A stretch of DNA of 64,000 bases from Streptomyces roseirectus (GTDB lineage Bacteria > Actinomycetota > Actinomycetes > Streptomycetales > Streptomycetaceae): the NCBI RefSeq assembly GCF_014489635.1, contig NZ_CP060828.1, positions 1,798,001 to 1,862,000 of the forward strand. The letters are read 5' to 3'. The position numbers and the translations under genes are program-made. This document shows, piece by piece, positions 37,955-61,020 of the stretch (the stretch's first letter is position 1; every line of letters begins with the position of its first letter). The notes beneath the pieces are model-generated. The model was not told the origin of the DNA, searched no databases, and was given only the letters and a program-made list of their open reading frames with translations.

Positions 37955-37965
37955 GGCCTCACACC

Positions 37966-39449: not shown

Positions 39450-39468
39450 GTCTCCGTGAGGAATTCTC

Positions 39469-45082: not shown

Positions 45083-46534
45083 ATGAAGATTCCGGCCTTG
45101 CTGTTCTTCCTGGTCGCCGTGCCGGCCGTCCTCTTGTTCCTGCCGCGTCCGAAGTGGGTGCGGGCACGGCAGGTGTTCGAGTTGCCGGAGGCGCGGGAAC
45201 CGGCGGCGCATGTGCGGTACTCGGTGCTGGTGCCGGCGTTGCGCGAGCCGTACCTCGACGCGATGTTCACGCACCTGATGGATCCGGGCCGCCGGGACTT
45301 CGAAGTGCTGCTGCTCGTGTCGCCGGACGACCACGACACGCTAGCGCAGGCGCGGAGGCTGGAGGCCGTGGACCCACAGCTGTTCCGGACGGTCCTGCGC
45401 ACCACACAGGGGTCCAGGCTGGCCGCCGCCCTCAACGAAGGGCTCGCCCACTGCGCCGGGGAGGTCGTCGGATTCCTGGAGGTCGACGACCCGTTGGCGC
45501 CCGGTCTCATCGACCGTGTCGACGGGGCGTTCCGGGCGTCCGGGGCGGACGTGGTCCGGCTCGCCGTGGACGTGCCCGGTGTGCTGGAGGCCGGGGAGAT
45601 CGTCCACCGGACCGACGACGTGGTGTGCGTCCGGGGGCGGTCACCCGTCCGGACGACCCCGCACTTCTGGCGGGGCCACAGCGCCGGCTATTTCGTCCGC
45701 ACCGACCTGCTGCGGCTGGTCGGCGGCTGGGACGACGGCTGCAGCGCCGAGGAACTGGAGCTGATGCTGCGCCTGTTCACGTACGGGGCGACCGGCGCGG
45801 TGCTGTACGGAGAGGAGACCCGGGTCACGATCCCCGTCGAGGCGACCCTGTCCCTCCAGACACGCATGCTGTACCGCCGTCGCCTGCGCCGGAACACGGG
45901 GCTGCTCCAGATCTACCGGACCCGCGAGTGGCACCGGATCCAGGGCAGGTTCCGCCGCTGGTCGGCCCGGCTGGCGCTGCTCCTGCCGCTGGTGCGGGAC
46001 CTGGCCGGACCGACGGTCGCGGCGCTGACGGTCGCGGCGTCCTTCTTCGTGGGCGAGTCCGTCACCGTCGGAGTGGGGTGGACCGCTTTCGTCGTGCTGG
46101 CGTTCGTCCTCCCGGATGACGCCGCCGTGGTCTGGCTGCGTGCTCAGACGCGCACGGACCAGTCCTGGCTGAGGACGGCGTCGCCCGCGTCCATCGCGAA
46201 CACCCTCCTCAGCGCCCTGACCCGCACCCCCGCCGCGCTCACCGCCCTCACCCACTACCTCCGGGGCGACACCCCCGTCCTCAACGCCCACTTCGAACAC
46301 AGCCTCCGCAAACCGCCACCCCGCGCTCCCGGACCACCCCCGCCCGAGTCCGAGGAGGACGCCCCGGCGGACCTTCTGGCCCTCGCCTCCTCCCCCGACA
46401 CCCCGGCGGCGGCCCAGGCGCTCGCCGCCGGACTCGACACCCTGTTCACCGCCCTGGGGCCGCCCCCAGAGGCGCAGCGCCTCGCCGGAACGGGCCCGGC
46501 GCCCAAGGGAGACGGAGGAGCCGACGATGGCTGA
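45083..46534 (+). CDS. Membrane-anchored GT2-like glycosyltransferase
   Basis: The 483-residue protein has an N-terminal membrane helix (about 4-21). A cytosolic GT-A domain follows, with VLVPALREPYLDAMF, a DxD-like site in FLEVDDP (133-137), GWDDGCSAEELELMLRL (acceptor-base acid region about 216-231), and an RMLYRRRLRRN segment where processive enzymes carry QxxRW. Two or three further helices lie at about 296-350, then a long Pro/Asp-rich C-terminal tail. It probably makes or extends a cell-surface glycan. ATG 45083 follows a G-run; ATG 45062 is a possible longer start. It overlaps the next gene by 8 bp. Confidence 0.75.
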   Translation: MKIPALLFFLVAVPAVLLFLPRPKWVRARQVFELPEAREPAAHVRYSVLVPALREPYLDAMFTHLMDPGRRDFEVLLLVSPDDHDTLAQARRLEAVDPQLFRTVLRTTQGSRLAAALNEGLAHCAGEVVGFLEVDDPLAPGLIDRVDGAFRASGADVVRLAVDVPGVLEAGEIVHRTDDVVCVRGRSPVRTTPHFWRGHSAGYFVRTDLLRLVGGWDDGCSAEELELMLRLFTYGATGAVLYGEETRVTIPVEATLSLQTRMLYRRRLRRNTGLLQIYRTREWHRIQGRFRRWSARLALLLPLVRDLAGPTVAALTVAASFFVGESVTVGVGWTAFVVLAFVLPDDAAVVWLRAQTRTDQSWLRTASPASIANTLLSALTRTPAALTALTHYLRGDTPVLNAHFEHSLRKPPPRAPGPPPPESEEDAPADLLALASSPDTPAAAQALAAGLDTLFTALGPPPEAQRLAGTGPAPKGDGGADDG

Positions 46535-46979
46535 CGAGATCGGGACGCAGCCCGCCCGGCAGCCGAGCGCCCTCGACATCGCCGCGCAGTGGGCCCAACT
46601 CCCCGCCGAACACCTGGCGGTGGCGCTCAGCGCGCTGGAACCGCAGCTCGCCCGGGAGCACGAGGCGCGGATGCGCTCCGAACAGGCGCAGGCGTACGCC
46701 GAGTTGGAGCAACTGCGTTCACGGGAGGCCGAGTTGAAGCGGGCGCACCGGCGCCGGCTGACGGGGACGTACTGCGCGGTGCTGGTGGCGCTCACCACCC
46801 TGGGCACGTCCGCGTACTTCGGGACGCATCAACAGCCGTGGCTGGCCGTCGCGTTCTTCGGCCCGACCCTGCTGTCCCTGGTGAAGATCCTCGCGCTGGG
46901 CCGCAGCGACGCGGACGACGTGAAACAGGCGGCGGCCGCCGTCCGGGCCGCCGCGAACGCGCTCCCGCCGCCGCCGTGA
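46527..46979 (+). CDS. Coiled-coil protein with two membrane helices
   Basis: I do not recognise the family. The 150-residue product has a charged N-terminal coiled-coil region (about 40-85, heptad-like REHEARMRSEQAQAYAELEQL), two membrane segments (about 88-106 and 111-128, the latter FFGPTLLSLVKILALG), and a C-terminal Ala-rich helix ending in PPPP. The overall plan resembles small DUF2335-like membrane proteins. It overlaps the glycosyltransferase gene by 8 bp, so it may be an accessory or scaffold for it. It is convergent with the nitrate reductase gene, stops one bp apart. Confidence 0.6.
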   Translation: MADEIGTQPARQPSALDIAAQWAQLPAEHLAVALSALEPQLAREHEARMRSEQAQAYAELEQLRSREAELKRAHRRRLTGTYCAVLVALTTLGTSAYFGTHQQPWLAVAFFGPTLLSLVKILALGRSDADDVKQAAAAVRAAANALPPPP

Positions 46980-46980
46980 C

Positions 46981-49900
46981 TCAGTAGACGTCCCTCATGT
47001 ACCGCTTCTCGGCGGCGAGTTGCTTCACGTACGCCGCCGCCTCCGCCTCGGTCATGCCGCCGTGGACCATGGCGATGTCGCGCAGTGCGCGGTCGACGTC
47101 CTTGGCCATGCGGGAGGCGTCACCGCAGACGTAGAAGCGGGCGCCCTCGCGCAGCCAGGACCAGAGTTGGGGGCCGTGTTCGCGCATGCGGTCCTGGACG
47201 TAGACCTTGGCGCGCTGGTCGCGGGAGAACGCGGTGTCGAGGCGGGTGAGGGTGCCGTCGGCGAGGAGCGCGGAGAGTTCGTCCTCGTAGTAGAAGTCGG
47301 TGGCCCGGCGCTGCTCGCCGAAGAAGAGCCAGTTGGGGGCGCGGTGGCCGAGGGCGCGGCGTTCGTGGAGGAAGCCGAGGAAGGGGGCGACGCCGGTGCC
47401 GGGGCCGATCATCACGGCGGGGACGCCGGTCTCGGCGGGCGGGCGGAAGTGCGGGGAGCGCTGGACGTGCAGCGGGACGACGGTCCCGGGTTCGGCGTCG
47501 GCGAGGAACGGGGAGCAGACGCCCTGCCGGGGCCGTCCCTCGCGGTTCTCGTAGCGGACGACGGAGACGGTGAGGGAGACGAGGTGGGGGTCGGTGAGCG
47601 GGCTGGACGATATGGAGTACAGGCGCGGACGCAGCCGGCCCATGACGTCGGCCCATTCCTGCGCGTCCGCCTCGATGCCGAACTCGGCGGCCACGTCGAC
47701 GGCTTGGCGGCCCCAGGACCACTTGGCGAGTTCGTCCTTGTTGTCGGGGCGCAGCAGCTTGCGCAACTCGCGCGGGTCGCGGGTGCGTTCGGCGGCGAAG
47801 CGGAGCAGGGAGGAGGTGACGCGGGTGATGTCGAGGTAGCGGGACAGGGCCTCGTCGAAGGGGACCTGGTCGCCCTCGACGCTGACCGGGGTGTCCGCGT
47901 CCAGTCCGGTGACGGTCAGCCACTCCTTGACCAGGGTCGGGGAGTTGAGGGGGCGTACGCCGAGCGCGTCGCCGGCCTCGTAGACGAGCGGGACCTCGCT
48001 GTCGCGGGTGTCGAACGTGAAGCGGCGCACCTCCTTGCCCGAACCGGCGCCGCTGAGCAGGACGTTGCCGACGAGGCGGCCGGTCGCGCCGGCGGGGCGG
48101 GGCGCCCGGCGCGGGGCAACCGCCTTGGGCGGTATGGGTGTTGCTGGAGCGGCGGTGGTGGTGAGGGCGCCGAGGACCTGGTCCAGCCACTCCTCGGCCC
48201 GCGTCTCGTAGTCCGGTTCGCAGTCGATGCGCGGCGCGAGGCGGACGGCGCCCAGCTCGTCCATGCGGTCGTCGAGCCGGCGTCCGTGGCCGCAGAAGTC
48301 GTCGTAGGACGAGTCGCCGAAGGCGAGCACCGCGTACCGGCGGCCTTCGAGGCGGCCCGCGTCGGGTGCGGTGAGGCCCGCCCAGAAGCCGGCGCCGTTG
48401 TCGGGGGCGTCGCCGTCGCCGAAGGTGCTGGTGATGAGGAGGAGGTCGGCGTCGGTGGGGAGGGCGGCGGGGTCGGCCTGGTCCATCTCGACGAGGGACG
48501 CGGTGTGGCCGCCCTGGGTGAGGCGGGCGGCGGTGGCGCTGGCGAACTCCTCCGCGTTGCCGGTCTGCGAGGCCCACAGGATGACAACCTGACGTGTGGC
48601 GGCGGGAGTCGGGGCCGTCGTCCGCGAATACAGGCCCGCCAGCGTGCCGTTGACCCACAAGGCGTGCTCGGGGCTGAAGGGCGCGTCCGGGGGGAGGACG
48701 GGGACGCCGGGGCCGCCCGCGGGGATCGCGGCGAGGAAGCCGAGCAGGTACTGCCGTTCGCGTTCGCTGAGGACGGGGGGCGGGGTGTTCTCCAGGCCGA
48801 AGAGGGCGGCGGAGGAGGTGGGCGGGGCGGTGGGGGAGGTGAAGACTGCGGACGGGACGAGGGCAGCCTTCGTGCCCTGTTCGGCGCCGTCCGGCATGCG
48901 TACGCTCACCGCCGTCGCCGTCTTCGTCAACGACACCGCGCACACCTTGAGTTCGGGCTGGAACGACAGCGGGTCGACGGCGTCGCTGCTGACCGCGTTG
49001 ACGCTCAGGTACTCCCCGAAGAGGTCGTTCCAGTGGAACGGCGCGAAGCAACTCCCTTGCTGCACACGGTCGGTGACGACGGCGGGCAGGACGGCGCGGC
49101 CTCGCCGGGAGGCGACCTCCACCGAGTCGCCGTCCACCAGGCCGAGTTCGGCCGCGTCCTCGGGGTGGATCTCCACGAACGGGCCGGGGTTCAGCTTGTT
49201 GAGCTTGGCGACGCGCCCCGTCTTGGTGAGCGTGTGCCACTGGTGCTGGAGGCGCCCGGTGTTGAGGACGAACGGGTAGTCGTCGTCGGGCAGCTCGGCG
49301 GGCGGCAGGTGCGGGCGGGCGTGGAAGACGGCCCGCCCGGAGGGGGTCGCGAAGTTCAGGGTGCCGTCGGGGCGGACGTAGCGGATCGGGTTGCGGTCGG
49401 GTCCGGCGGGCGCGGCCGGCCACTGCACGGGCGTCTCGCGCAGCCGCTCGTAGGTCACCCCGCGCAGGTCGTAGCCGGTGGCGGGGTTGTAGGCGCCCTT
49501 GATCTCCTCGAAGATCTCCTCCGCGCCCGCGTAACTGAATCCGCTCGCGTAGCCCATCGCGCAGGCGATGTCGGCGATGAGCCGCCAGTCGGCGACGGCC
49601 TCGCCGGGCGCGTCGACGGCGGGCCGGGCCAGCGTGAGGGTGCGCTCGCTGTTGATGAGGACGCCCTCGGTCTCCGTCCACAGCGCGCCGGGCAGGATGA
49701 CATCCGCGTACGCGGCCGTCTCGGTCTCCGCGAACACGTCCTGGACGACGACGAGTTCGGCGGCCTCCAGGCCCTCGATGACGGTCCTGCGGTTGCCGAC
49801 GGAGGCTACGGGGTTGGTGCAGATGATCCAGGCCGCCTTGATCTCGCCGTCGGCCATCTTGCGGAACATCTCGACGGTGCCCTTGCCGACGCCGTCGGCG

Positions 49901-51072
49901 CGGATGGTGCCGGGCTCCAGTCCCCACAGTTCCTCGGTGAACCGCCGGTCGGCGTCGGCGAGTACGGACCGCTGGCCGGGCAACCCCGGTCCCATGTAGC
50001 CCATTTCGCGGCCGCCCATCGCGTTGGGCTGGCCGGTGAGGGAGAACGGGCCGCTGCCGGGGCGGCAGATGGCGCCGGTCGCGAGGTGGAGGTTGACGAG
50101 GGCGTTGGTGTTCCAGGTGCCGTGCGTGGACTGGTTGAGGCCCATCGTCCAGCAGCTGGTCCACTCCCCCGCCTCGCCGATGAGGCGCGCGGCCTCGCGC
50201 AGGTCGGCCTCGGGTATGCCGGTGAGTTCGGCGACGGTGTGCGGCGGGTAGTCGGCGAGGAAGGCGGGCATCGCCTCCCAGCCCTCGGTGTTCTTGGCGA
50301 TGAACTCGGGGTCGGTGTGGCCGTTCTCGACCAGCAGGTGCAGCAGTCCGTTCAGCAGCGCGAGGTCGGTGCCCGGCTTGACCTGGAGGAACAGGTCGGC
50401 CTTGGCGGCGGTGGCGGTGCGGCGCGGGTCGACGACGATGAGTTTCGCGCCGGACGACTTGATCCGGTCCATCATCCGCAGGAACAGGATGGGGTGGCAG
50501 TCGGCCATGTTGGAGCCGATGACGAGGAAGACGTCCGCCTTGTCGAAGTCGTCGTAGGAGCCGGGCGGGCCGTCGGCGCCGAGGGACAGCTTGTAGCCGG
50601 TGCCCGCGCTGGCCATGCACAGCCGGGAGTTCGACTCGATCTGGTTGGACCGCAGGTAGCCCTTGACCAGCTTGTTCGCGAGGTACTGGGCCTCCAGGCT
50701 CATCTGTCCTGAGACGTAGAGGGCGACCGCGTCGGGCCCGTGCTCGTCGACGATCGCGCGCAGCCGGCGGGCCGTCTCGGCGACGGCGTCCCGGACGGGC
50801 GTCGGGTGGGGTTCCTCGCCCCGGTCCGTGCGGACGAGGGCGGTGGTGAGGCGGCCCGGCGCGGTGAGCATGTCGGCCGTGGTGGCGCCCTTGGTGCAGA
50901 GCCGGCCGAGGTTCGCGGGGTGCTCCTTGTCGCCGGACGCCTTCAGGACCGTCCGCCGTCCGTCGGGTCCGAGGCCGATGTCGAGGACCATGCCGCAGCC
51001 GACACCGCAGTACGAGCAGACCGTGCGCACCTTCGTCGCGCTGTCGGTCCGCGGGTCCGGCACGGCGGCCAC
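46981..51072 (-). CDS. Assimilatory nitrate reductase fused to diflavin reductase
   Basis: The 1363-residue cytoplasmic protein reduces nitrate to nitrite and carries its own electron supply. Residues about 15-70 form the [4Fe-4S] domain (Cys19, Cys22, Cys26, Cys59). About 70-700 is a Mo-bis-PGD (MopB) domain with [21 protein letters not shown] and molydopterin-binding strands ([18 protein letters not shown]). About 826-975 is a flavodoxin-like FMN domain ([27 protein letters not shown]). About 995-1363 is a FAD/NADPH ferredoxin-reductase domain like CysJ ([22 protein letters not shown], terminal RYMRDVY). It thus fuses NasA with a CysJ-like module and needs no separate NasB/ferredoxin. GTG 51072 follows AAGGGGG. 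Confidence 0.92.
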
Positions 51073-51169
51073 GGGCGCCCCCTTCTGTCTGACGGTCGGC
51101 CTGGTTAGAGCCTCAGTGACGGTACGAAGTGCTGATTACGCCGGTGTCTCCCTCGCAGGTCACCGGGGG

Positions 51170-52153
51170 TTAACCCCGCCGCACAGATGCGGCGGGCGGG
51201 GTGTGAGCGCCGCCGGTCTCCAGCCCGGCGAGATCGCTCCGGCCCTGGTAGAGGGTGCGTCCGTCGCGGACGACGGTCAGGGTCAGCGGCGCGGTCAGGT
51301 GGTGCGCGGAGGCGGTCAGGGCGTGCGGTTCGGCCAGCGGCACGGGCACCGGGCTCGCCCCGCCGCCGGGCGCCTCGGCGGTGATCCGCACGGTCGTCCG
51401 GGGCCCCGCCGCCGTCACCCGCCACCGCCCGCCTGCGATCTCCGTCCGGACCCGGGCGAGCGGCGGGACGAGACGCAGGACGCGGGCGCCGACGCGGACG
51501 ACGACGCTGGTCAGACGGGTGTCGAGGGGCCCGGCGGACAGGGGGCCGCCGGCCAGGGCGACGCAGACGTCGGGCCGGTCGAAGCCGTGCGCCTGCGCCC
51601 ACCACCAGGTGTCCGGGAAGGCCGGGCCCCAGTTCTTCTCCGCGTAACAGCGGGCGCCGTCGAGCGCCGTCGGCGGGCCGCCGAGGGTGGCCTTGCCGGT
51701 GACGTCGGCGTCGAAGAGGTACGGGTGCCAGTACTGCGACAGTCCGGGCAGGAGGGAGCCGGCGCCGAGGCCGTGCAGCGGGCGGCCCGTCCACAGGGCG
51801 GGGCGCTCCAGCCGGACGGACAGACGGGCGTCGTCACCGAGGTCGACGTCCAGGCGGTCGCCGTCGACGGTGAGGGCGTCGCCGACGGTCAGGGCGAGGC
51901 GGTCGGGGTCGGACCAGGTGGCGTCGGTGGTGGTGGCGCGCAGGAAGCCGCCGGGTTCGGATGCGAGGAAGGCAAGGCCCCAGCGGTTTCCGGCATGCCG
52001 GACGAGGGCGCAGCCGGCGATCACCACCCGGTTCCCGGGTGTGGTGAAGCGCCAGAAGAAACCCTCGGTGGCGACGCCGTGCGCGGGGCGCGGATCGCCG
52101 AAGGGGAGATCGGCGCCGGTGGCCCGCCAGGCGTGGCGGAGCGCGGGGATCAT
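51170..52153 (-). CDS. Tocopherol-cyclase-like protein
   Basis: The 327-residue protein resembles the tocopherol cyclase/lipocalin-like family of plants and cyanobacteria. Matching features are EGFFWRF near the N-terminus (about 30-36), SQYWHPYLFDADVTGKA (about 139-155), and the diagnostic YAEKNWGPAFPDTWWWAQAHGF (about 170-191), followed by alternating beta strands. Tocopherol cyclase closes a chromanol ring on a prenylated quinol. It is the last gene of a UbiC-PobA-like-UbiA series, which strengthens that reading, but sequence similarity is distant and a carotenoid-hydratase-like or lipid-binding role is possible. ATG 52153 is preceded by GAGGAG at 7 nt; frames extending upstream run into the UbiA gene. 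Confidence 0.62.
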   Translation of the reverse strand: MIPALRHAWRATGADLPFGDPRPAHGVATEGFFWRFTTPGNRVVIAGCALVRHAGNRWGLAFLASEPGGFLRATTTDATWSDPDRLALTVGDALTVDGDRLDVDLGDDARLSVRLERPALWTGRPLHGLGAGSLLPGLSQYWHPYLFDADVTGKATLGGPPTALDGARCYAEKNWGPAFPDTWWWAQAHGFDRPDVCVALAGGPLSAGPLDTRLTSVVVRVGARVLRLVPPLARVRTEIAGGRWRVTAAGPRTTVRITAEAPGGGASPVPVPLAEPHALTASAHHLTAPLTLTVVRDGRTLYQGRSDLAGLETGGAHTPPAASVRRG

Positions 52154-52206
52154 GGGAGTCTCCTCATGGCACGGTACGGACGTCGCACGGCACGAAAATC
52201 GAGTAT

Positions 52207-52226
52207 CACCGGTTTCCACCGGTTTC
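52207..52226. repeat. Tandem 10-bp repeat upstream of cyclase-like gene
   Basis: Two contiguous copies of CACCGGTTTC lie in the 79-bp gap between the UbiA stop and the tocopherol-cyclase-like start, about 54 bp before the latter. One-turn spacing would suit a regulator binding two half-sites in tandem. No known consensus was matched. Confidence 0.5.
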
Positions 52227-52232
52227 CCCGGC

Positions 52233-53237
52233 TCACCTCGGCAGGGCCAGGGCCGCCGCGAAGGCCGCGAGCACGGCCGGCGGATGCCAGGTGGCCCGGT
52301 TGAAGACGGCCATCGCCGCAGCGGCGGACGGCTCCCGCAGCAGCCGCACGCCGGGCCCGAGGAGCAGGAACACCGTCGCCAGGGCCGTGATTGTGACTCC
52401 GGACACACCGTATGAGTCCGTCAGGTACAGGGCGAGGGCGACGGCCGAGACGCCGGCGACGAGCAGGGCGACGGCGGCGCAGCGGACGGCCGCGGCGGGG
52501 CCGAGGACGACCGGGACCGTGCGGATGCCGAGGCGGGTGTCCTCGCCGGCGTCCACGAAGTCGTTCGGGATGTTCCGGCCGCCGATCTCCCAGGCCGCGA
52601 GCCACAGGCACAGCAGCCCGAGGGCGGGCCAGGGCACCGGGCCCGGCACCGCGAGGGCGCCCGCGCACGCGCCGACGGCGACGACGACGCCGGACAGCAG
52701 GCACTTCAGCGCGCTGACCGTGGCCAGCTTGCAGTACGCCACCTCCAGCGCGACGGCGACGACGAGGACCACGAAGGACACCGGCGACAGCCACGCGGTG
52801 ACCGCCGTGCCCAGCGCCCCGAGCCCGACGACCCACATCACGGCGACGCGGTACGGGAGTTCACCGCGCGCCAGCGGGTGACGCACGCCGACGGTGTCGA
52901 TGTCGAACCCGCTGAAGTCGCGTTCCTCGTGCGCGAACCGGGCGCGGTCGAGGCGGTGGTCGAGGACGTCGTTGGCGGCGAACGTCGCCAGGAACACGGC
53001 GAGCATCGCGCAGGCCAGCAGCAGGAAGCGGGCCGGGTCCGGGTCGTCGTCCACCACCAGGGCGGCGACGAGGGGCTGGGCGGTGCTGAGGGTCGCCTGG
53101 GCGGCGCGGGAGAGGCCGCAGAGCGCTTTGACGTACCGGAGCAGGCGATTGGGCCTGGACGGGCGTTCGGGCGCACCTCCGCCGGTGCTCGGCTCTGACC
53201 GTTTTTGTTCTGTCTGTTTCTGAAGTACCTCACTCAC
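52233..53237 (-). CDS. UbiA-family prenyltransferase
   Basis: The 334-residue integral membrane protein (about eight helices) has both Asp-rich Mg/diphosphate motifs of aromatic prenyltransferases: AANDVLDHRLDRARF (about 88-101) and RNIPNDFVDAGEDTRLGIRT (about 223-242), the latter with the DxxxD-T-R-GI-R-T pattern. It would attach an isoprenoid chain to an aromatic acceptor at the membrane. The first 30 residues are a polar, disordered extension. GTG 53237 overlaps the monooxygenase stop (GTGA), so it is translationally coupled to the enzyme that would make the acceptor. The polyprenyl donor synthase is not in the window. Confidence 0.88.
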   Translation of the reverse strand: MSEVLQKQTEQKRSEPSTGGGAPERPSRPNRLLRYVKALCGLSRAAQATLSTAQPLVAALVVDDDPDPARFLLLACAMLAVFLATFAANDVLDHRLDRARFAHEERDFSGFDIDTVGVRHPLARGELPYRVAVMWVVGLGALGTAVTAWLSPVSFVVLVVAVALEVAYCKLATVSALKCLLSGVVVAVGACAGALAVPGPVPWPALGLLCLWLAAWEIGGRNIPNDFVDAGEDTRLGIRTVPVVLGPAAAVRCAAVALLVAGVSAVALALYLTDSYGVSGVTITALATVFLLLGPGVRLLREPSAAAAMAVFNRATWHPPAVLAAFAAALALPR

Positions 53238-54394
53238 GGTGTGAAAACGGACTCCGCACCGGCGTAGTCACGGGCGAAAGCGGTCGCGTACGGTCCCGTC
53301 CTCGCCAGCGCGCGGATGCGTTCGCGGCGCAGTCTGAGGGCGAACCGGCGTTCCTCGGGGCCGCCGGGCGGCAGGTGGAGCAGGTCGAGGAGCCGGTCCG
53401 AGAAGTCCTGCGCCCACCAGGCCCCGGCGCCGCGCCGCGCCTCGTACCCGGCGAGGAGGCTGTCGTCGCCGGTGCGGACGCGGTGGATCAGGCCCGCCGC
53501 GAGGTCGGCGGCGTCGGCGACGGCGAGGTTGAGGCCCTTGGCGCCGGACGGCGTCAGGACGTGCGCGGCGTCGCCCGCGAGGAACACGCCGCCCGCGCGC
53601 AGTCCCCGGCGGACCCGGCCCCGCATCCGCAGCATGCCCCGCTCCCGCAGCCGGACGGGCCTCGGGTCGCCGGCGCCGGGGGCGAGCCGCAGGTCGAGGG
53701 CGGCGAGCACGCGGTCCTCGGGCCAGTCGGCGGGGTCGGCGCCGGCCGGGACCTGGAGGTAGAGGCGGGCGACGTTCCCCGTGCGCGGCATCATCCCGGC
53801 GAACCCGGCCTCGTGGACGGCGTACAGCACGCCCGCGACGGGGCCGGTCATGTCGGCGAGGACGGTCAGCCAGTCGTAGGGGTAACGGCGGCCCGTCACC
53901 AGGGAGTCGGGGACGCTCGCCGCGACGACGCCCTGCGCGCCGTCGCAGCCGGCCACGAAGTCGGCCCGGACGGCGCCCTGTCGGAGGCGCAGTGTCGTGC
54001 CGTCCAACTCCTGTACGGGGGCGTCGAAATGGACCGGGCAGCCGATCTCGTCCAGCTTCTCGACGAGGTCGCGCAGCAGCAGGTGCTGCGGGTACACCCA
54101 GTGCCGGAACCCGCCGGAGAGGGTGCCGTAGTCGACGCGGACGCGTTCGCCGAGGCAGGCGAACACGCACCAGCCGTGCCGTTCGCCCTCCTTCAGCAGC
54201 CGGTCGGCGAGGCCGTGCGCGGCCAGGAACTCGACGACGCGGTGCTCCAACAGGCCCGCGCGGGGCCGCTGTTCGACGTCCGCGCGGCTGCGCCGCTCCC
54301 ACACCTCGACGTCGATGCCGGCGCGGTGCAGGAGCGCCGCGAGGACGAGTCCGGCGGGGCCCGCGCCGACGACCGCGACGCGTTCGCCGCTCAT
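53234..54394 (-). CDS. 4-hydroxybenzoate 3-monooxygenase-like FAD enzyme
   Basis: The 386-residue class A flavoprotein hydroxylase has VAVVGAGPAGLVLA, GCDGAQG and GDAAHVLTPSGAKGLNLAVAD, the last nearly as in PobA. Aligning by eye with Pseudomonas PobA, active-site positions Arg44, Tyr201, Arg214, Arg220, Tyr222 and Tyr385 appear as Arg45, Tyr191, Arg204, Arg210, Tyr212 and Tyr377. Ser212, which contacts the substrate carboxylate, appears as Met202. Hydroxylation, perhaps decarboxylative, of 4-hydroxybenzoate or a relative is therefore likely. It overlaps the chorismate-lyase gene (ATGA) and the UbiA gene (GTGA), so its substrate and product probably flow between them. Confidence 0.84.
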   Translation of the reverse strand: MSGERVAVVGAGPAGLVLAALLHRAGIDVEVWERRSRADVEQRPRAGLLEHRVVEFLAAHGLADRLLKEGERHGWCVFACLGERVRVDYGTLSGGFRHWVYPQHLLLRDLVEKLDEIGCPVHFDAPVQELDGTTLRLRQGAVRADFVAGCDGAQGVVAASVPDSLVTGRRYPYDWLTVLADMTGPVAGVLYAVHEAGFAGMMPRTGNVARLYLQVPAGADPADWPEDRVLAALDLRLAPGAGDPRPVRLRERGMLRMRGRVRRGLRAGGVFLAGDAAHVLTPSGAKGLNLAVADAADLAAGLIHRVRTGDDSLLAGYEARRGAGAWWAQDFSDRLLDLLHLPPGGPEERRFALRLRRERIRALARTGPYATAFARDYAGAESVFTP

Positions 54395-54987
54395 CGCGCG
54401 TCCGCCGGGACGACCGCCGGGTTGAACAGTTCGAAGACCGCCGCGAAGGGGCGTTCGCCGTGCCACAGGAGGTACGCCTTGTACGCGGCCGGTTGTCCGC
54501 ACGGCCCCCAGGGGCGCCGGCCCGCGTCGAGCAGCGAACGCCGGTAGGCGGTGCCCGCCGCCTGGAGCATGGGGCCCAGCGGGGCGGAGGTGTCTTCGAG
54601 GCAGTGCCGGGCCGCCGGGCACAGGTCCGGGCGGGCGACGACCGCGTTCCGCGAGAGGTCGGCGCCGTCGGCCCCGCCGAGGACGGAGTGCCGGACGATG
54701 GCCTCGGCGCCGTCCGTGCCCAGCAACTTGCCTGCGCCCCAGGGGGTTTCGGCGGCGGGCACGCGGTGCTGCGCCGCCCGCAGGACCGTGACGTCGGCGC
54801 CGGTCCAGGCCCGCAGGAGGGTGGTCGTCAGGCCGTCGCCGCTCAGCAGGAGGCGGGTGGCGGGGTGGGTGAAGCGGCGGATGCGGGCGGTGACCTCCTC
54901 AAGGGGTCTCGCCACGAAGCGGGGGCTGTCCTCCTCCCGCTGCTCGGCGCTCAACTCATCGGTCCAGATAGGTGATTGCACCGGCAC
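54391..54987 (-). CDS. Chorismate pyruvate-lyase (UbiC family)
   Basis: UbiC converts chorismate to 4-hydroxybenzoate and pyruvate. The 198-residue product aligns by eye with E. coli UbiC along most of its length: LLLSGDGLTTTLLRAW (cf. the SSMTKRF region), AIVRHSVL with Arg99 in the position of catalytic Arg76, SAPLGPML with Leu137 at the product-gating leucine, a Thr/Arg-rich helix, and AVFELFNPAVVP with Glu186 at catalytic Glu155. All key residues are kept. The GTG start at 54987 has a weak GAG upstream. It heads the downstream module, after a 120-bp gap with a 10-bp inverted repeat, so it likely begins a separate transcript. Confidence 0.8.
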   Translation of the reverse strand: MPVQSPIWTDELSAEQREEDSPRFVARPLEEVTARIRRFTHPATRLLLSGDGLTTTLLRAWTGADVTVLRAAQHRVPAAETPWGAGKLLGTDGAEAIVRHSVLGGADGADLSRNAVVARPDLCPAARHCLEDTSAPLGPMLQAAGTAYRRSLLDAGRRPWGPCGQPAAYKAYLLWHGERPFAAVFELFNPAVVPADAR

Positions 54988-55032
54988 GCTTTCTCGGACG
55001 AAAGGACAGCAACCCGCCGAAAGGTAGCAGCA

Positions 55033-55064
55033 GAACGTTTCTGCCCTTCCGGGAAGAAACGTTC
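55033..55064. promoter_or_regulatory. 10-bp inverted repeat between module halves
   Basis: GAACGTTTCT and AGAAACGTTC are perfect 10-bp arms around a 12-bp spacer, in the 120-bp gap after the macro-domain gene and 46 bp before the chorismate-lyase start. A second dyad, GCAGAA-CGT-TTCTGC (55030-55044), overlaps one arm. It could be a terminator for the upstream operon or an operator for the downstream one; the absence of GC-rich arms favours an operator. Confidence 0.5.
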
Positions 55065-55107
55065 CGGCCGCCCGGAGTCACACCATGGGGTGAACCCGCG
55101 CGGCCTC

Positions 55108-55620
55108 CTAGAGCGCCGCGTACCCCGTGAACGCCGCGTACGCCGCCTCGTCGAACAGCACGAACCGCACCTCCTCGACCCGGGTCGGCGTCCGGCGCAC
55201 GGTCCGGATCGCGATCCGCGCCGCGTCGTCGAGGGGCCAGCCGTAGATGCCGGCGGAGACGGCGGGGAACGCGACGGTGCGGGCGCCGAGTTCGTCGGCG
55301 AGTTCGAGCGACGCGCGGTAGCAGGAGGCGAGTTGGTCGGAGCGGTCGTCGGTGGCGCTGTGGACCGGGCCGACGGTGTGGATGACCCAACGGGCGTTGA
55401 GGTTCCCGGCTGTTGTGGCCACCGCCTGGCCGGTCGGGAGGCCCTTGCCGTAGTGCGAGGCGCGCAGCTTCCGGCAGTCCTCCAGGATCGCGGGGCCGCC
55501 CCGGCGGTGGATGGCGCCGTCGACGCCACCGCCGCCGAGCAGCGAGGAGTTCGCCGCGTTGACGATGGCGTCGACGGACTGGTCGGTGATGTCGCCCTGG
55601 ACGAAGGTAAGGGTGGTCAT
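55108..55620 (-). CDS. Macro-domain O-acetyl-ADP-ribose deacetylase
   Basis: The 170-residue single macro domain of the MacroD/YmdB type has VQGDITDQSVDAIVNAANSSLLGGGGVDGAIHRRGG (ADP-ribose pocket with catalytic Asn/Asp region) and FPAVSAGIYGWPLDDAA (phosphate loop and second wall). It hydrolyses O-acetyl-ADP-ribose or removes ADP-ribose from proteins. It lies 37 bp after the phosphodiesterase gene and before the chorismate-lyase gene on the same strand. A link to the sirtuin elsewhere in the window is biochemical rather than genetic. No obvious role in the neighbouring biosynthetic genes. Confidence 0.92.
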   Translation of the reverse strand: MTTLTFVQGDITDQSVDAIVNAANSSLLGGGGVDGAIHRRGGPAILEDCRKLRASHYGKGLPTGQAVATTAGNLNARWVIHTVGPVHSATDDRSDQLASCYRASLELADELGARTVAFPAVSAGIYGWPLDDAARIAIRTVRRTPTRVEEVRFVLFDEAAYAAFTGYAAL

Positions 55621-55657: not shown

Positions 55658-57043
55658 TCATTTCGGCTGGCTCTGCTGGCGGGCCAACTCCAGCAGGACG
55701 TCCTTGATCTCTGTCGCCGCGTACGCCTCGCGGGTCAACGTCGGCTCTGAGCACAGGAGCACGGGGGTGTGGGCGGGGTTGTCGGGGAGGCGGCCGTGGC
55801 TGCCTCGGATGCCGGAGGGGTCGAGGGGGACCGTGCGGATGCGGTAGCGGAAGCCGAGTTTCTTGCGGAGCACCGAGCCGACGGCGCGGAGCCGGACGGC
55901 CGGGACCGTCGGGTCGTACAGCAACTCGGCCGGGTCGTAACCGGGTTTGCGGTGGATCTCGACCTGGCGGGCGAAGTCGGGGGCGCGTTCGTCGTCGAGC
56001 CAGTAGTAGTAGGTGAACCAGGCGTCGGGGTCGGCGACGGCGACGAGTTCGCCGGAGCGTTCGTGGTCGAGGCCGCGCTCCTTCTTGCCCGCCGCGTCCA
56101 ACACCTCGTCCACGCCGTCGAGTTCGGCGACGACCTCGGCGACCCGGTCGGTGTCGGCGGGGTCGCGGACGTAGACGTGGGCGATCTGGTGGTCGGCGAC
56201 GGCGAAGGCGCGGGAGGTCCAGGGGTCCAGGTACTCCATGCCGTCCTGGGTGTGGACGTCGAGGAGCCCGGCGGAGCGCAGCGCGCGGTTGATGTCGACG
56301 GGGCGGTGCGCGGGCGCGATGCCGTACTCGCTGAGGGCGACGACCGTCGCGCCCGCCCGCTCGAAGTGGTCGATCAACGGGCCGAGCGCGGCGTCGAGCC
56401 GGCGCGCCTCGGCGGCCGTCCGCGGGGAGTCGGGGCCGGTGCGCTGGGGCTCGTAGTCGAGGTGGGGGACGTAGACGAGGGTGAGGTCGGGCTGCTTCTC
56501 GTCGAAGATCTGCCGGGCGGCGCCCAGGATCCACTGCGTGGAGGGCAGCCCCGCGTTCGGGCCCCAGTAGGTGAACAGGGGGAACGGGCCCAGGCGTTCG
56601 GTGAGTTCGTCGTGCAGCTCGGGCGGCCAGGTGTAGCAGTCGGGTTCCTTGGCGCCGTCGGAGTAGTAGATGGGGCGCGGGGTGACCGTCCAGTCGACGT
56701 CGGCGCCCATCGCGTACCACCAGCAGACGTTGGCGACCGTGAAGCCGGGGTGCTCCCTGCGCGCCGTCTCCCAGATCTTCTCGCCGCCGACGAGCGCGTT
56801 GTGCTGGCGCCACAGCAGGACGTCGCCGAGGTCGCGGAAGTACCAGCCGTTGGCCACCGCGCCGTGTCCGGAGGGGAGTTCACCGGTGAGGAAGGTGGAC
56901 TGGACGGTGCAGGTGACGGCGGGCAGGACGGTGTCGAGGCGGGCCCGCGAGCCGCGTTCGCCGAGGGCGGTGAGCGAGGGCATGTGGCGCAGGAGGTTGG
57001 GGGTGAGCCCGACGATGTCGAGGACGACGAGACGCTTGTTCAT
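55658..57043 (-). CDS. Alkaline-phosphatase-superfamily phosphodiesterase (EboF-like)
   Basis: The 461-residue protein belongs to the nucleotide pyrophosphatase/phosphodiesterase group. VVLDIVGLTPNLL gives the first metal Asp, PAVTCTVQSTFLTG the Thr nucleophile, YVPHLDYEPQRTGPDS the Asp/His metal pair, and LSEYG the strand that normally reads LSDHGM. Here Glu-Tyr replaces Asp-His, so one metal site is altered. A terminal His-containing segment (IRGSHGRLP) is retained. No signal peptide is visible. Its ATG overlaps the EboE gene stop (ATGA). In ebo clusters a protein of this superfamily is the F component. Confidence 0.82.
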   Translation of the reverse strand: MNKRLVVLDIVGLTPNLLRHMPSLTALGERGSRARLDTVLPAVTCTVQSTFLTGELPSGHGAVANGWYFRDLGDVLLWRQHNALVGGEKIWETARREHPGFTVANVCWWYAMGADVDWTVTPRPIYYSDGAKEPDCYTWPPELHDELTERLGPFPLFTYWGPNAGLPSTQWILGAARQIFDEKQPDLTLVYVPHLDYEPQRTGPDSPRTAAEARRLDAALGPLIDHFERAGATVVALSEYGIAPAHRPVDINRALRSAGLLDVHTQDGMEYLDPWTSRAFAVADHQIAHVYVRDPADTDRVAEVVAELDGVDEVLDAAGKKERGLDHERSGELVAVADPDAWFTYYYWLDDERAPDFARQVEIHRKPGYDPAELLYDPTVPAVRLRAVGSVLRKKLGFRYRIRTVPLDPSGIRGSHGRLPDNPAHTPVLLCSEPTLTREAYAATEIKDVLLELARQQSQPK

Positions 57044-58284
57044 GGGCGTTCCTCTGAGGGGTCGGGGTGGGTGTTCTTGGCGTCTTTCAGGGCGGGGCGG
57101 GTGTCCTTCGGGGCGGGGCCGGTGTCTTTCAGGGCGGGGCCGTCGAGGCCGAGCCCGGTCAACCGGCCGTGGGCCCACGCGAGTTCGGCCGCGATGCCGC
57201 CGGGGAGGTCGGTGGGCGGGGTCGGCAGGACGGACCACGTGTACGTCTCGACCTCGACGTGGTCGCACAGCGCCTCCTGACCCGCGTACAACTCGGCGAG
57301 CACGGCGGCGAGTTGGCCGGAGGTGGTGCGCAGCGGCGGTTCGGGGTCGGCGTGCAGCGGGGCGTGGAAGTGGACGCGCCAGGGGCCGGTGTCCGTCGGG
57401 AGGGCGCCGTCGAGGGCGTCGGGCAGGTCGTCGGCGTCGAGGACCCGGCCCGCGCGGACGGTCCGGGTCTGGTGCAGGAACCGGGGTTCGGCGAGCCGGC
57501 GCAGGGCGGCGCGGGCGGCCGGGTCGGCGGGGTCGGTGGCCTCGATCGCGCTGGACGCCTGGAGTTTGACGACCGGCAGCCCGGCGGCGCGGAGGCGGGC
57601 GAGCGCGGCGGCCGGATCCTCGAACTGCACGGCGAGGTGGCAGGCGTCGAGGCAGACGCCGAGCCGGTCGGGGTCGAGTCCGCCGAGCCGTTCGACGGCC
57701 TGCGCGGTCGTCTCGACGACACAGCCGGGCTCGGGTTCGAAGCCGACACGGATCCGTCGCCCGGTGTCCGCCTCGATCCCGGCGAGCCCGCCGGCCAGCC
57801 GGTCCAGGGCCCGGCGCGCGGCGTCGGCGCGGTCGGCGGGCCAGGGTTCGCGCCAGGCCAGCGGGACCGTGGAGACGCTGCCCCGCCGGGCGTCGTCCGG
57901 CAGCAACTCGGCGAGCACACGGGCGCATTCGAGGGTGTGGGTCAGGCGTGCCTCGTCGGCCCAGTCGGGCAGGTAGACGTCCCGCTTGACGACCTCGCGG
58001 TGGAAACCGGCGTACGGGAAGGCGTTCAGGGTGACCGTCTCCAGCCCCCTGGCGGCGAGTTCCCCCTTGAGGCGCTTCAACTGCGCTGGTTCCCGGACGA
58101 GTTCCACGACGACGTCCCGCGCGAGCCACAGTCCGATGCCGAGCCGGTCCACGCCGAGGCGTTCGCGCACCGGCTCGGCGTACGTGGCGAGTTGGGCGAC
58201 GACGCCGTCCAGGTCCTCCGCCTGGTGGACGTTGCTGCAGTAGCCGACGTGGACTGTCGAACCGTCAGGGTGCGTGAACCGCAC
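57040..58284 (-). CDS. eboE: EboE metabolite-traffic protein
   Basis: The 414-residue TIM-barrel protein of the xylose-isomerase-like superfamily has the EboE-type start THPDGSTVHVGYCSNVHQAEDL. Further features are TLNAFPYAGFHREVVKRDVY, VGFEPEPGCVVE (metal Glu region), VCLDACHLAVQFEDP (Asp/His), and RVHFHAPLHADPEPPL. Its exact reaction is unknown; ebo genes are linked to transport or maturation of hydrophobic aromatic metabolites such as the scytonemin precursor. The C-terminal 35 residues are a degenerate repeat (GPALKDT, GPAPKDT, RPALKDA). It overlaps the phosphodiesterase gene and lies six bp after the TatD gene. Confidence 0.88.
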   Translation of the reverse strand: MRFTHPDGSTVHVGYCSNVHQAEDLDGVVAQLATYAEPVRERLGVDRLGIGLWLARDVVVELVREPAQLKRLKGELAARGLETVTLNAFPYAGFHREVVKRDVYLPDWADEARLTHTLECARVLAELLPDDARRGSVSTVPLAWREPWPADRADAARRALDRLAGGLAGIEADTGRRIRVGFEPEPGCVVETTAQAVERLGGLDPDRLGVCLDACHLAVQFEDPAAALARLRAAGLPVVKLQASSAIEATDPADPAARAALRRLAEPRFLHQTRTVRAGRVLDADDLPDALDGALPTDTGPWRVHFHAPLHADPEPPLRTTSGQLAAVLAELYAGQEALCDHVEVETYTWSVLPTPPTDLPGGIAAELAWAHGRLTGLGLDGPALKDTGPAPKDTRPALKDAKNTHPDPSEERP

Positions 58285-58290
58285 GGGGGT

Positions 58291-59145
58291 TCACTCCCCG
58301 CCGCGTTTGATGGAGTTGCCGGCGAACAGGGCCGTGTCGTCCGGCTTGAGGTCCGCCAGGTCCAGGCGTCCGCTCTGGCCGTAGAAGGCGACCGGGTTGC
58401 GCCACATCACCTTGTCGACGGTGTCCTCGTCGAAGCCGTCGGCGAGCATCGCGTCGGCGGTCTTGCGTGTCTTCAAGGGGTCCGAACTGCCCCAGTCCGC
58501 CGCCGAGTTCACCAGGACGCGGTCGGTGCCGTGGCCTTTCAGGATCTCGACCATGCGGTCTTCGCTCATCTTGGTCCTCGGGTAGATCGAGAACCCGGCC
58601 CAGCAGCCGCTGTCCAGCACCATGCCGACGGTCAGCTCGTTCAGGTGGTCCAGGACGACGAGTTCGGGGGCGATGCCGGACTCGCGGACGACGTCCAGGG
58701 TGCGGCGGGTGCCGGCCGCCTTGTCGCGGTGCGGGGTGTGCACGAGCGCGGGCAGGCCGTGGTCCACGGCGAGTTGGAGCTGACGGGCCAGTGCCTCGTC
58801 CTCCGCCGGTGTCATCGAGTCGTACCCGATCTCGCCGACCGCCACGACGCCGTCCTTGGCGAGGTACCGGTCCAGTTCGTCCAACACCGGTAAGCAGCGC
58901 GGGTCGTTGGCCTCCTTGGGGTTGAGCGCGATCGTGCAGAAGTGCCGGATCCCGAACTGCGCCGCCCGGTAGGGCTCCCAGCCCAGCAGCGCGTCGAAGT
59001 AGTCGTGGAAGCTCTGCGGCGAGGTGCGCGGCTGGCCGAGCCAGAACGCCGGTTCCACCAGCGCGCGGACCCCTGCCGCGTACATCGCCTCGTAGTCGTC
59101 GGTCGTGCGGGACGTCATGTGGATGTGCGGGTCGAAGATGCGCAT
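58291..59145 (-). CDS. TatD-family metal-dependent hydrolase (EboB-like)
   Basis: The 284-residue amidohydrolase-fold protein shows metal motifs FDPHIHMTSRT (HxH), AVGEIGYDS (Glu), PALVHTPHRDKAAG (His), LDHLNE (His) and VNSAADWGSSDP (Asp). The spacing is that of TatD. Classical TatD proteins are nucleases; the ebo members are hydrolases of unknown substrate. It begins two bp after the EboA gene and ends six bp before eboE, consistent with a single mRNA. Confidence 0.86.
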   Translation of the reverse strand: MRIFDPHIHMTSRTTDDYEAMYAAGVRALVEPAFWLGQPRTSPQSFHDYFDALLGWEPYRAAQFGIRHFCTIALNPKEANDPRCLPVLDELDRYLAKDGVVAVGEIGYDSMTPAEDEALARQLQLAVDHGLPALVHTPHRDKAAGTRRTLDVVRESGIAPELVVLDHLNELTVGMVLDSGCWAGFSIYPRTKMSEDRMVEILKGHGTDRVLVNSAADWGSSDPLKTRKTADAMLADGFDEDTVDKVMWRNPVAFYGQSGRLDLADLKPDDTALFAGNSIKRGGE

Positions 59146-59147
59146 GG

Positions 59148-60116
59148 TCAGGACCTCCTTCGGGGGGCGGTGGTGCCGAGGGGGAGCGCGGGGGCCGGGC
59201 CGTCCGCGTCCGTCTCCGCCAGGGCCGCGAGGGCGCGGGACGCCGCTTCCGGGCGGGTGCCGGCGAGGTCGCGGGCGCGGGCGGCGAGGGACTTGGCCAG
59301 GGCCGTGTGCGCGCGGACCAGGGGCCAGACGTCGGCCGGTACCGTGCGGCCCGCCGCGATGCGTTCGTGCGCGAAGTCGGCCAGCATCCGGGCGAGTTCA
59401 CGGTCCGCACGGGCGTCGAGGCCGTACAGGCGCTCCAGCGGGATGTCGTTGAACACGCACTTGAGGACGGCCTGCCGGTACTCGGCGTCCGGCAGCCGCG
59501 CCGCCGCGTACGCGCCCAGCGCCGCCTCGATCACGCTGTTGTCGTTGCCGCGCAGGGCCTCGCGGACGAGGTCCAGCGCGAGGTCACCGAGCCGGTCGGC
59601 GGAGGCGGACGCGAAGAGGGTGCGGCGGACGCCGGGGACACCGGGGGGTGGGGTGCGGCGGGGGGTGGGGATGGCCGGGGCGAGGGAGCCTGCCGGGATG
59701 CCGGTGGTGTCCAAGTCACCTGCTGCGTAGGGCTGTTCGGCGTCCGGGGGCCACTGCGCGCACTCCGTGTTGACCTCCTCCAGCAGGGGCAACGCCCGTA
59801 GTACGGCGCGTTGTTCGGCGGGGTCGCCGTGGCGGTAGAGGTCGGCGACCGCGTCCGCGAGGGCCGCTCCGCGCAGGGGGAGGGCGGTGAGGAGGGCGGC
59901 GCGGGCGGCGTCGTCGGTGTGCCAGTGGTCGGTGAGCCGGTCGTGGCCGCACTGGCGGCGCGCGGCGGGGAACAGGGCGCGGATGGCGGCGGGGTCGGCC
60001 GCGATCCGGGTGGTGGCGTCGTCGAGCCAGGCGCGCGCCCGGTCGGGGAGCGGTGCGCCGGCGAGCGCGGGCCGGGGGTCCGGTGGCGCCTGCGGGATCG
60101 GATGAGCGGTAGCCAT
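59148..60116 (-). CDS. eboA: EboA-domain protein
   Basis: The 322-residue largely helical protein carries the EboA-domain pattern: RARAWLDDATTRIAADPAAI near the N-terminus, DNSVIEAALGAYAAARLPD and YRQAVLKCVFNDIPLERLYGLD in the middle, and RMLADFAHERIAAGRTVPADVWPLV after it. No catalytic motif is known. A Pro/Gly-rich linker (about 138-170) separates an N-terminal helical region with a His/Asp cluster (DHWHTDD) from the core. It is probably cytoplasmic and, in cyanobacteria, EboA is needed for export of the scytonemin monomer. It is separated from the preceding TIM-barrel gene by 54 bp. Confidence 0.86.
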   Translation of the reverse strand: MATAHPIPQAPPDPRPALAGAPLPDRARAWLDDATTRIAADPAAIRALFPAARRQCGHDRLTDHWHTDDAARAALLTALPLRGAALADAVADLYRHGDPAEQRAVLRALPLLEEVNTECAQWPPDAEQPYAAGDLDTTGIPAGSLAPAIPTPRRTPPPGVPGVRRTLFASASADRLGDLALDLVREALRGNDNSVIEAALGAYAAARLPDAEYRQAVLKCVFNDIPLERLYGLDARADRELARMLADFAHERIAAGRTVPADVWPLVRAHTALAKSLAARARDLAGTRPEAASRALAALAETDADGPAPALPLGTTAPRRRS

Positions 60117-60170
60117 GCCTGCGAACTCTCCTGGGGGATGGGAGGAGAACCGGGGGAAAACGAGGGGCTG

Positions 60171-61004
60171 TTACGCCGCCGCGCGCAGGAAGTCGAGGGA
60201 ACGGCGGGCGAGTTCGGGCGCGTTCAGGGCGCCGCCCTGGATCTCGACGGAGACGAGCCCGGTGTGTCCGAGGTCGCGCAGCGCGGCCAGCACCGGGGGG
60301 AAGTCGATCTCGCCGGTGCCGAGTTCGAGGTGTTCGTGGATCCCGCGCCGCGCGTCCTCGACCTGGACGTTCAGCAGCCGGGGCGCCGCCAGCCGGATAC
60401 AGTCCAGGACGCTCGCCTCCTCGACGCAGTGCGCGTGCCCGACGTCGAGGGTGATGCCGAACCGCTCGTGTCCGCCGGTGAGTTCGGCGAGGCGCAGACA
60501 GCGTTCGACGGTGTTGACGAACATGTACGGCTCGGGTTCGAAGGCGAGCGAGACGCCGTAGAACTCGGCGGTCTCCAGCACCCGTCCGACGCCGTCCGCG
60601 AGCCGCTTGAACGCGTCCACCTCCGGGACGCCGTCCGGCGCGGGCCCGCTGCACAACTGCACGCTGGGTGAGCCGAGTTCACCGGCGATGCGGACGGCCC
60701 GCCGCAGCAGGTCGACGCGCTGGTCGACGCCGTCGCCCATGAGGGTCGGCTGATGCTTGCCGTAGGCGTCGAGGAGGTAGGGCGCGCCGGTCTCGACGGT
60801 GACGCTCAGCCCGCGCCGCTCCAACTGGCGCCGTACGCCCTCGACTCGGCGGGGCAGGTCGTCGGCGTAGGGGTCGAGGTGGACGTGGTCGAGGGTGAGG
60901 GCCACTCCGTCGTAGCCGAGGTCGGCCAGGACACCTAACACCTGGTCGAGCCGGTGGTGCGTGAAACCGTTGGTGCCGTAGCCGAACTTGAGGGGGGAGG
61001 CCAT
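60171..61004 (-). CDS. Sugar-phosphate isomerase/epimerase-like TIM-barrel protein
   Basis: The 277-residue xylose-isomerase-like TIM barrel has FGYGTNGFTHHRLDQVL, YDGVALTLDHVHLDP, SVQLCSGPAPDGVPE, LAFEPEPYMFVNT (metal Glu), GITLDVGHAHCVEEA (metal Asp/His), NVQVEDARRGIHEHLELGTGEIDF (His) and VSVEIQGG (Glu), a complete metal site. It is a second TIM-barrel protein in addition to EboE. ATG 61004 is preferred, with GAGGA about 9 nt upstream; a GTG at 61019 is an alternative. Specific substrate unknown; position inside the ebo cluster suggests a role on the same metabolite. Confidence 0.82.
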   Translation of the reverse strand: MASPLKFGYGTNGFTHHRLDQVLGVLADLGYDGVALTLDHVHLDPYADDLPRRVEGVRRQLERRGLSVTVETGAPYLLDAYGKHQPTLMGDGVDQRVDLLRRAVRIAGELGSPSVQLCSGPAPDGVPEVDAFKRLADGVGRVLETAEFYGVSLAFEPEPYMFVNTVERCLRLAELTGGHERFGITLDVGHAHCVEEASVLDCIRLAAPRLLNVQVEDARRGIHEHLELGTGEIDFPPVLAALRDLGHTGLVSVEIQGGALNAPELARRSLDFLRAAA

Positions 61005-61020
61005 GCGGGGGTTCCTCACG

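Follow-up and report, generated by a model that had tools for sequence, protein, structure and literature searches.

A candidate four-gene module for a prenylated benzopyran carboxylic acid in Streptomyces roseirectus

Organization of the module

The window analysed here is a 64,000-nucleotide stretch of the Streptomyces roseirectus genome (contig NZ_CP060828.1, positions 1,798,001 to 1,862,000). It contains four genes, all on the minus strand, coding in order for a chorismate lyase-like protein, a PobA-like flavoprotein aromatic hydroxylase, a UbiA-superfamily prenyltransferase and a tocopherol-cyclase-like protein (Table 1). A sequence-only reading of this DNA had proposed these four genes in this order, and all are present and open; the labels it gave them, and the general chemistry, appear to be the best account of the sequences. 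On balance we favour the view that the genes constitute a short operon for synthesis of a prenylated benzopyran (chroman) carboxylic acid.

Of the 4-bp overlaps noted earlier there are two, which join the first three genes: ATGA between the lyase and hydroxylase genes and GTGA between the hydroxylase and prenyltransferase genes; the cyclase gene follows after a 79-bp gap without overlap. The cyclase most likely starts at the ATG at 52153, which has GAGGAG in front of it, rather than at the distal end of the long open reading frame. The protein sequences are conserved in other genomes and chance reading frames are thus ruled out; the window proteins keep 34 of 40 (lyase), 57 of 66 (cyclase) and 78 of 92 (UbiA) strongly conserved positions. 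A promoter and terminator scan gave no promoter matches and a single terminator-like site (mean of 1.2 in shuffled sequences). We note that the gap between the UbiA and cyclase genes (52154-52232) has the 10-mer GGAAACCGGT in two tandem copies.

Table 1. Positions of the module and surrounding features in the window, and loci of cyclase relatives
Feature	Position	Strand	Remarks
Chorismate lyase-like gene	54987-54391	minus	198 or 196 aa; GTG start at 54987 or 54981
PobA-like flavoprotein aromatic hydroxylase	54394-53234	minus	386 aa
UbiA-superfamily prenyltransferase	53237-52233	minus	334 aa
Tocopherol-cyclase-like protein	52153-51170	minus	327 aa
Macro-domain protein (O-acetyl-ADP-ribose deacetylase family)	55620-55108	minus	120 bp upstream of module; conserved background
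Molybdopterin oxidoreductase/flavodoxin-reductase fusion	51072-46981		bounds module on downstream side
ebo cluster (EboF, EboE, EboB, EboA, TIM-barrel protein, EboC candidate)	55658-62205	minus	upstream of module
Accessory segment containing module	37955-55107		17 kb; between conserved anchors, missing in two relatives
Streptomyces HPPD-cyclase loci			L064, L078, L083, L084, L090, L091, L097, L098, L103, L108
Lone cyclase loci (70)			L065-L077, L079-L082, L085-L089, L092-L096, L099-L102, L104-L107, L109-L143

The lyase-like protein and the hydroxylase

Family profiles bear out the expected assignments for Tocopherol_cycl, UbiA and FAD_binding_3, all matched above cut-off, but not for the lyase, which scores 17.2 bits against PF01947 (cut-off 22), nor for the curated PobA models, whose cut-offs are missed. 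The lyase family as a whole gives a clearer picture. Seven of its eleven members match PF01947 (E up to 0.1, best 2.6e-6), and a profile built from the eleven matches PDB 2nwi at 5.6e-10, an entry named Hypothetical protein that we take to be a member of the Rv2949c/PF01947 fold family. Comparison of the window protein with E. coli UbiC by hhalign gave no match (probability 0.5%, 27 columns), and it is 54.5-56.4% identical to the product of a Streptomyces plasmid gene annotated as a chorismate pyruvate-lyase family protein. A single-sequence structure model had a pLDDT of 36 and was not used. The protein thus appears to be of the Rv2949c/PF01947 type and not of the E. coli UbiC type, with profile support at the level of the family; we keep UbiC below as a label for gene order. 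A Nocardia plasmid (L014, 8824-10647) has an open reading frame annotated as DAHP synthase whose opening stretch is 33% identical to the lyase-like protein, possibly a fusion of a pre-chorismate enzyme with a post-chorismate enzyme.

The flavoprotein scores 209.9 bits against FAD_binding_3 (cut-off 22), and the models it matches best are those of PobA, although under their curated cut-offs (PRK08243, 318.3 against 351; TIGR02360, 223.8 against 538.7). A phmmer search matches it to 4-hydroxybenzoate 3-monooxygenase structures (best 2.9e-66), and in the alignment to 1cc4 the substrate-contact residues Tyr201, Arg214, Tyr222 and Pro293, from the list for PHBH in the excerpted text of PMC6315137, are retained. 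Because the carboxylate pocket retains its Arg214 and Tyr222, there is no support for the decarboxylative hydroxylation to a hydroquinone that had been raised as a possibility; nothing else was found for it, and we reject it.

One substitution bears on what this enzyme does. Ser212 of PobA is replaced by Met in the same alignment, at a position where published PHBH sequences have Ser in 97% and Thr in 3% of cases (PMC6315137, as excerpted), so that hydroxylation of free 4-hydroxybenzoate at C3 is not certain. The Met is found in all eleven PobA-like proteins read (the window protein, those of two plasmids and of eight of the three-gene cassettes described below), a count that excludes the divergent ADI95-16 plasmid partner, which has no aligned place. 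An alternative suggested by this pattern is that prenylation precedes the action of the flavoenzyme, or that the substrate of the enzyme is another acid, in which case the aromatic head would not be protocatechuate, and the product would still be a 4-hydroxybenzoate-derived prenylated chroman. There is precedent for such timing in ubiquinone synthesis, where hydroxylation follows prenylation. We regard this alternative as unlikely, if a serious one. The four retained contact residues argue against it, as does a Tyr at the position that we take to correspond to Tyr385 by alignment to 7on9. Two Streptomyces plasmids carry the UbiC-PobA pair, with 4-bp overlaps and without UbiA, which favours an unprenylated substrate, and another PobA-like gene of the same genome, at 7.89 Mb, also has Met at this place, so that this residue is not peculiar to prenylation. 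In a PobA tree the window protein groups with the two plasmid proteins (93/99, just below the starred level). A FUSC-family gene lies shortly downstream of the plasmid pairs (L012, 8839-12361, where the assignment is from Pfam; L013, 8962-12099), and UbiC-PobA-FUSC is possibly a make-and-export unit for hydroxybenzoate.

The prenyltransferase and a recurrent three-gene cassette

The prenyltransferase scores 83.7 bits against PF01040 (cut-off 34.2) and has two Asp-rich motifs, NDVLDHRLD and NDFVDAGED, with N89, D90, D93 and D97 and N225, D226, D229 and D233 invariant across ten sequences. Its profile matches the digeranylgeranylglyceryl phosphate synthase 6m31 at 4e-11. Subfamily models score nearly equally and all far below cut-off (general prenyltransferase, 42.5; digeranylgeranylglyceryl phosphate synthase, 36.7; MqnP, 28.4 bits), and the 4-hydroxybenzoate polyprenyltransferase cut-offs are missed as well (PRK12888, octaprenyl, 37.4 against 364; TIGR01474, 23.3 against 275.45).

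Searches with UbiA and with the cyclase covered 392 Streptomyces genomes, taken to be the same set in both, with up to five candidates scored per genome. The module UbiA is present in ten of these, including its own, and in eight of the nine other loci (L016-L019, L021-L024) UbiC, PobA and UbiA genes are consecutive in the same order and on the same strand; at L020, UbiA is alone with a methyltransferase adjoining. The UbiA proteins of the nine loci are 45-53% identical to that of the module, and the cassette overall 45-56%. Conservation of the genes together in relatives, as the sequence-only reading had anticipated, thus holds for the first three genes but not for the full set of four. Neither a cyclase nor a convincing ebo match lies within ~10 kb of the nine loci, the sole ebo-like signal being a 54-residue TIM-barrel match (E 0.01) at L024. 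At L016 the cassette comes after genes for a polyprenyl synthetase and a methyltransferase, and at L022 a methyltransferase adjoins it, from which it appears that the cassette serves prenyl-aromatic metabolism elsewhere.

A search of plasmids found no match for UbiA (E up to 1e-10) or the cyclase (E up to 0.01). Across the phylum, UbiA was found in 15 of 396 genomes, including the window genome and G157; the short flanks of ten further loci from this search contain no match to UbiC, PobA or the cyclase, and six of the ten have a UbiE-type neighbour.

The tocopherol-cyclase-like protein and its relatives

The cyclase scores 66.5 bits against Tocopherol_cycl (PF14249; cut-off 26.6), in a match that covers profile positions 150-335 only, and it contains the segments YAEKNWG and FPDTWWWAQ, the first of which is the YxEKNWG motif given for plant and cyanobacterial cyclases in the excerpted text of PMC4963081. 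In a set of 81 cyclases including that of the window, FPxxWxWxQ is found in all 81, YxEKxWG in 75 and YxEKNWG in 63, lone cyclases (see below) included, and the motif alone is therefore no proof of ring closure. A confident predicted model has the AttH/kievitone-hydratase/CghA fold, and a VIA-align comparison, confined to structures ranked by Foldseek, suggests that the nearest solved folds are those of kievitone hydratase, Diels-Alderases and a lyase, among others; the cyclase profile gave no match to PDB sequences. Kievitone hydratase acts on a prenyl double bond.

Since these solved structures span a hydratase, Diels-Alderases and a lyase, the fold does not fix the reaction, and it is conceivable, if rather improbable, that the product is a prenylated open-chain catechol acid, a redox or metal-binding lipid, with the cyclase-like protein acting as a hydratase or other prenyl-modifying enzyme. 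The eight cassettes above are consistent with this, as they have no cyclase beside them or anywhere in their genomes. The distribution of the cyclase itself bears on the question in both directions. It is found in four of the 392 Streptomyces genomes, its own included, and neither the cassette nor ebo was found nearby (~10 kb) at the other three loci. A search for relatives in named genomes gave 196, of which the best 80 were retained, ten from Streptomyces (three of them taken to be the same strains as the three genus-sample matches) and 70 from other genera. Neighbour lists were available for 72 of the 80 (no cyclase gene was called in eight); the homologue tally covers all 80, some with flanks ended by contig ends.

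Within 10 kb, each of the ten Streptomyces loci has genes for HPPD, a UbiA, an O-methyltransferase and an enzyme of the geranylgeranyl-reductase type, with a UbiE-type methyltransferase in nine (not L064) and a polyprenyl synthetase in seven, and the cyclase gene adjoins UbiA or UbiA-polyprenyl synthetase on the same strand. In two scanned loci HPPD scores 394 and 400 bits (cut-off 277), and the geranylgeranyl-reductase subfamily cut-off was also passed. These are likely tocochromanol-type clusters in a non-photosynthetic genus. The window cyclase is up to 52% identical to the cyclases of these loci; their UbiA proteins have no significant match to that of the module.

Neither HPPD nor a UbiA homologue over 40% of its length was found at the other 70 loci (from Rhodococcus, Mycobacterium, Nocardioides, Gordonia and Solirubrobacterales, among other groups); the family thus has other uses, which speaks for the open-chain alternative. 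Among the 62 with a neighbour list, weak UbiA neighbours are present in two (L100 and L126). Of all 70, a distant PobA-like match (26-30%) is present at four (L069, L113, L116, L135) and a UbiE-type match at L124. These lone cyclases probably depend for their substrate on genes in other parts of the genome.

Ring closure by the window protein is favoured by its grouping with the cyclases of the HPPD/UbiA clusters and not with the lone ones, and by the exact YxEKNWG, though that motif is also found in lone cyclases. In an unrooted tree of the 81 cyclases the window protein and the ten Streptomyces proteins are apart from the 70 others (99/93), and the ten are also apart from the window protein plus the 70 (100/98). 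This tree leaves the placement of the window protein undecided, and one with an outgroup was needed. Six distant actinobacterial PF14249 proteins formed the outgroup, and the ingroup took in 24 lone cyclases out of the 70 as well as another six actinobacterial proteins; these added proteins come from 12 of 20 PF14249 loci of other genomes (six had no open reading frame called and in two it was too short). Among the 41 ingroup rows, the window and ten Streptomyces cyclases form one clade (96/95). The case that the window cyclase belongs with the Streptomyces HPPD-cluster clade is good but not final, and this kinship could not have been known from the window sequence alone.

A proposed pathway

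The module would then be composite, a reused three-gene cassette to which a cyclase from the HPPD-cluster clade has apparently been joined. In the pathway that we propose from family membership, conservation and gene order, the lyase-like protein would convert chorismate to 4-hydroxybenzoate and pyruvate, as its profile similarity suggests, and the PobA-like flavoenzyme would hydroxylate the ring, most likely at C3, to give protocatechuate or an equivalent. UbiA would add an isoprenyl chain ortho to the 4-hydroxyl, with a chain length that we guess to be C10-C20; the prenyl diphosphate would come from the cell, as no prenyl diphosphate synthase is among the four genes. The cyclase would protonate the first prenyl double bond, and the phenol (4-) oxygen would close onto that bond. 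The product would be a 2-methyl-2-prenyl-chroman carboxylic acid, probably 8-hydroxylated. We are least sure of the substrate of the hydroxylase and the timing of its action (Met 212), the chain length, and ring closure as opposed to addition of water.

Several observations weigh against this interpretation. The four genes occur together in only one of the 392 genomes, that of the window, and neither UbiC nor the module UbiA is found at any of the 80 cyclase loci in the flanking stretch examined. The cyclase gene is 79 bp away from the cassette and could serve another pathway, and the end branch of its product is long (1.17 in the unrooted tree and 0.71 with the outgroup, whose branches are long too). 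The sub-threshold PF01947 score of the lyase-like protein and the Met at the Ser212 place count here as well, and the acceptor of UbiA does not appear to be fixed by its sequence.

The nearest described bacterial pathway that we found is that of xiamenmycin in Streptomyces xiamenensis (PMC4053376), and the nearest with respect to the cyclase is tocopherol synthesis. As given in the excerpted description of xiamenmycin, XimC is a chorismate lyase that bears no similarity to E. coli UbiC, XimB is a UbiA prenyltransferase, the XimD epoxidase and the SnoaL-like cyclase XimE form the benzopyran, and the amide synthetase XimA adds threonine. A small Streptomyces cluster with a non-UbiC-like lyase, UbiA prenylation of 4-hydroxybenzoate and a benzopyran carboxylic acid is thus common to both; however, the five xim genes, likened here by that description, include no PobA-like hydroxylase or tocopherol cyclase. 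No SnoaL-like cyclase of the XimE type was found in Pfam scans of 18 window genes (37598-37954 and 46527-46979 lay outside the scan). The earlier statement that no bacterial pathway with this exact set was described holds for the literature searched, but the same logic has been published for xiamenmycin.

With the tocopherol pathway of plants and cyanobacteria the module shares an aromatic head, UbiA-type prenylation, ring closure by a tocopherol cyclase and the YxEKNWG motif. It differs in that the head would come from chorismate via 4-hydroxybenzoate, whereas that of tocopherol comes from HPPD via homogentisate, and in that the four genes include no methyltransferase or geranylgeranyl reductase; neither HPPD nor a methyltransferase is among the scanned window genes between 51 and 64 kb, the part of the genome searched for HPPD. 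The Streptomyces HPPD-UbiE-geranylgeranyl reductase/O-methyltransferase-UbiA-(polyprenyl synthetase)-cyclase clusters share the closest cyclase clade, with HPPD in place of UbiC-PobA, and the UbiC-PobA-UbiA cassettes share the other three genes, with no cyclase or ebo close by. Among the papers listed from one open-licence library, none described the Streptomyces tocochromanol cluster, the cassette or the four-gene set, which argues only weakly for their absence from the literature. Photosynthetic organisms are described as the only makers of tocochromanols (PMC5745509, PMC9515888, as excerpted), and a 2016 paper noted tocopherol-cyclase-like proteins in heterotrophic bacteria, with a function then unknown (PMC4963081). 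A tentative generalization, for which we would put the chances somewhat below even, is that one Streptomyces cyclase clade is used in a mix-and-match fashion independently of photosynthesis, with an HPPD-derived homogentisate head, giving true or near-true tocochromanols, in at least ten strains, and a chorismate/4-hydroxybenzoate head here, giving a novel 8-hydroxychroman-6-carboxylic acid lipid, possibly a membrane antioxidant. The three genes beside the cyclase point to a plausible substrate, and the closest relatives of the cyclase are in tocochromanol-like clusters, so the function of this bacterial family is directly testable in standard Streptomyces hosts; if our interpretation is true, there would be a second, epoxide-free route to benzopyran carboxylic acids.

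The ebo cluster and the accessory segment

Upstream of the module on the same strand is an ebo cluster, on which the sequence-only reading was silent; the single macro-domain gene between them is 37 bp from the ebo cluster and 120 bp from the module. EboE scores 427.9 bits against NF035939 (cut-off 250), and EboA passes the domain model NF035938 (156.9, cut-off 50) and misses the family model NF035937 (79.2 of 320); the remaining genes are assigned by Pfam matches and synteny in relatives. The ebo cluster also holds a UbiA-superfamily gene, as excerpted descriptions of ebo, EboC and Ubi-297 note (PMC9235831), but the module UbiA is dissimilar to the EboC candidate of the window, and we rejected its identification as EboC as there was no significant blastp match between them.

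The same-strand adjacency invites the idea that the module is functionally part of ebo, its product being a cargo or lipid carrier of the ebo proteins. In Nostoc, transport of a scytonemin precursor into the periplasm depends on the ebo genes (PMC6282210), and it has been proposed that the product of ebo is prenylated (PMC5133447; both as excerpted). We nonetheless consider a functional link improbable and reject it as the principal explanation. EboE is present in 85 of 121 Streptomyces genomes against ten of 392 for the module UbiA. Module genes are absent from all ten ebo loci of other genomes and from the second ebo locus of the same genome (L062, G000:C1 1734511-1735734, EboE 57% identical) within the 15-20 kb examined, and the nine other UbiA loci and the three other cyclase loci of the genus sample, as described above, were without ebo within ~10 kb, the TIM-barrel match at L024 aside.

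Two relatives also count against a link. In G132 and G091 the matches to window positions 37598-37954 and 55108-55620 (83-92% identical) are 1.1 and 2.1 kb apart, and no window gene from between these anchors was matched, though ebo and the macro-domain gene are present. The module thus sits in a 17-kb accessory segment, and its adjacency to ebo is most likely incidental, although the ebo proteins might conceivably deliver its product. Besides the module the segment codes for a pyridine-nucleotide-disulphide oxidoreductase, a beta-galactosidase, an aminotransferase, a glycosyltransferase and the molybdopterin/flavodoxin-reductase fusion. Several relatives have a further gene of ~395 aa after EboF, which by eye is a candidate cytochrome P450.

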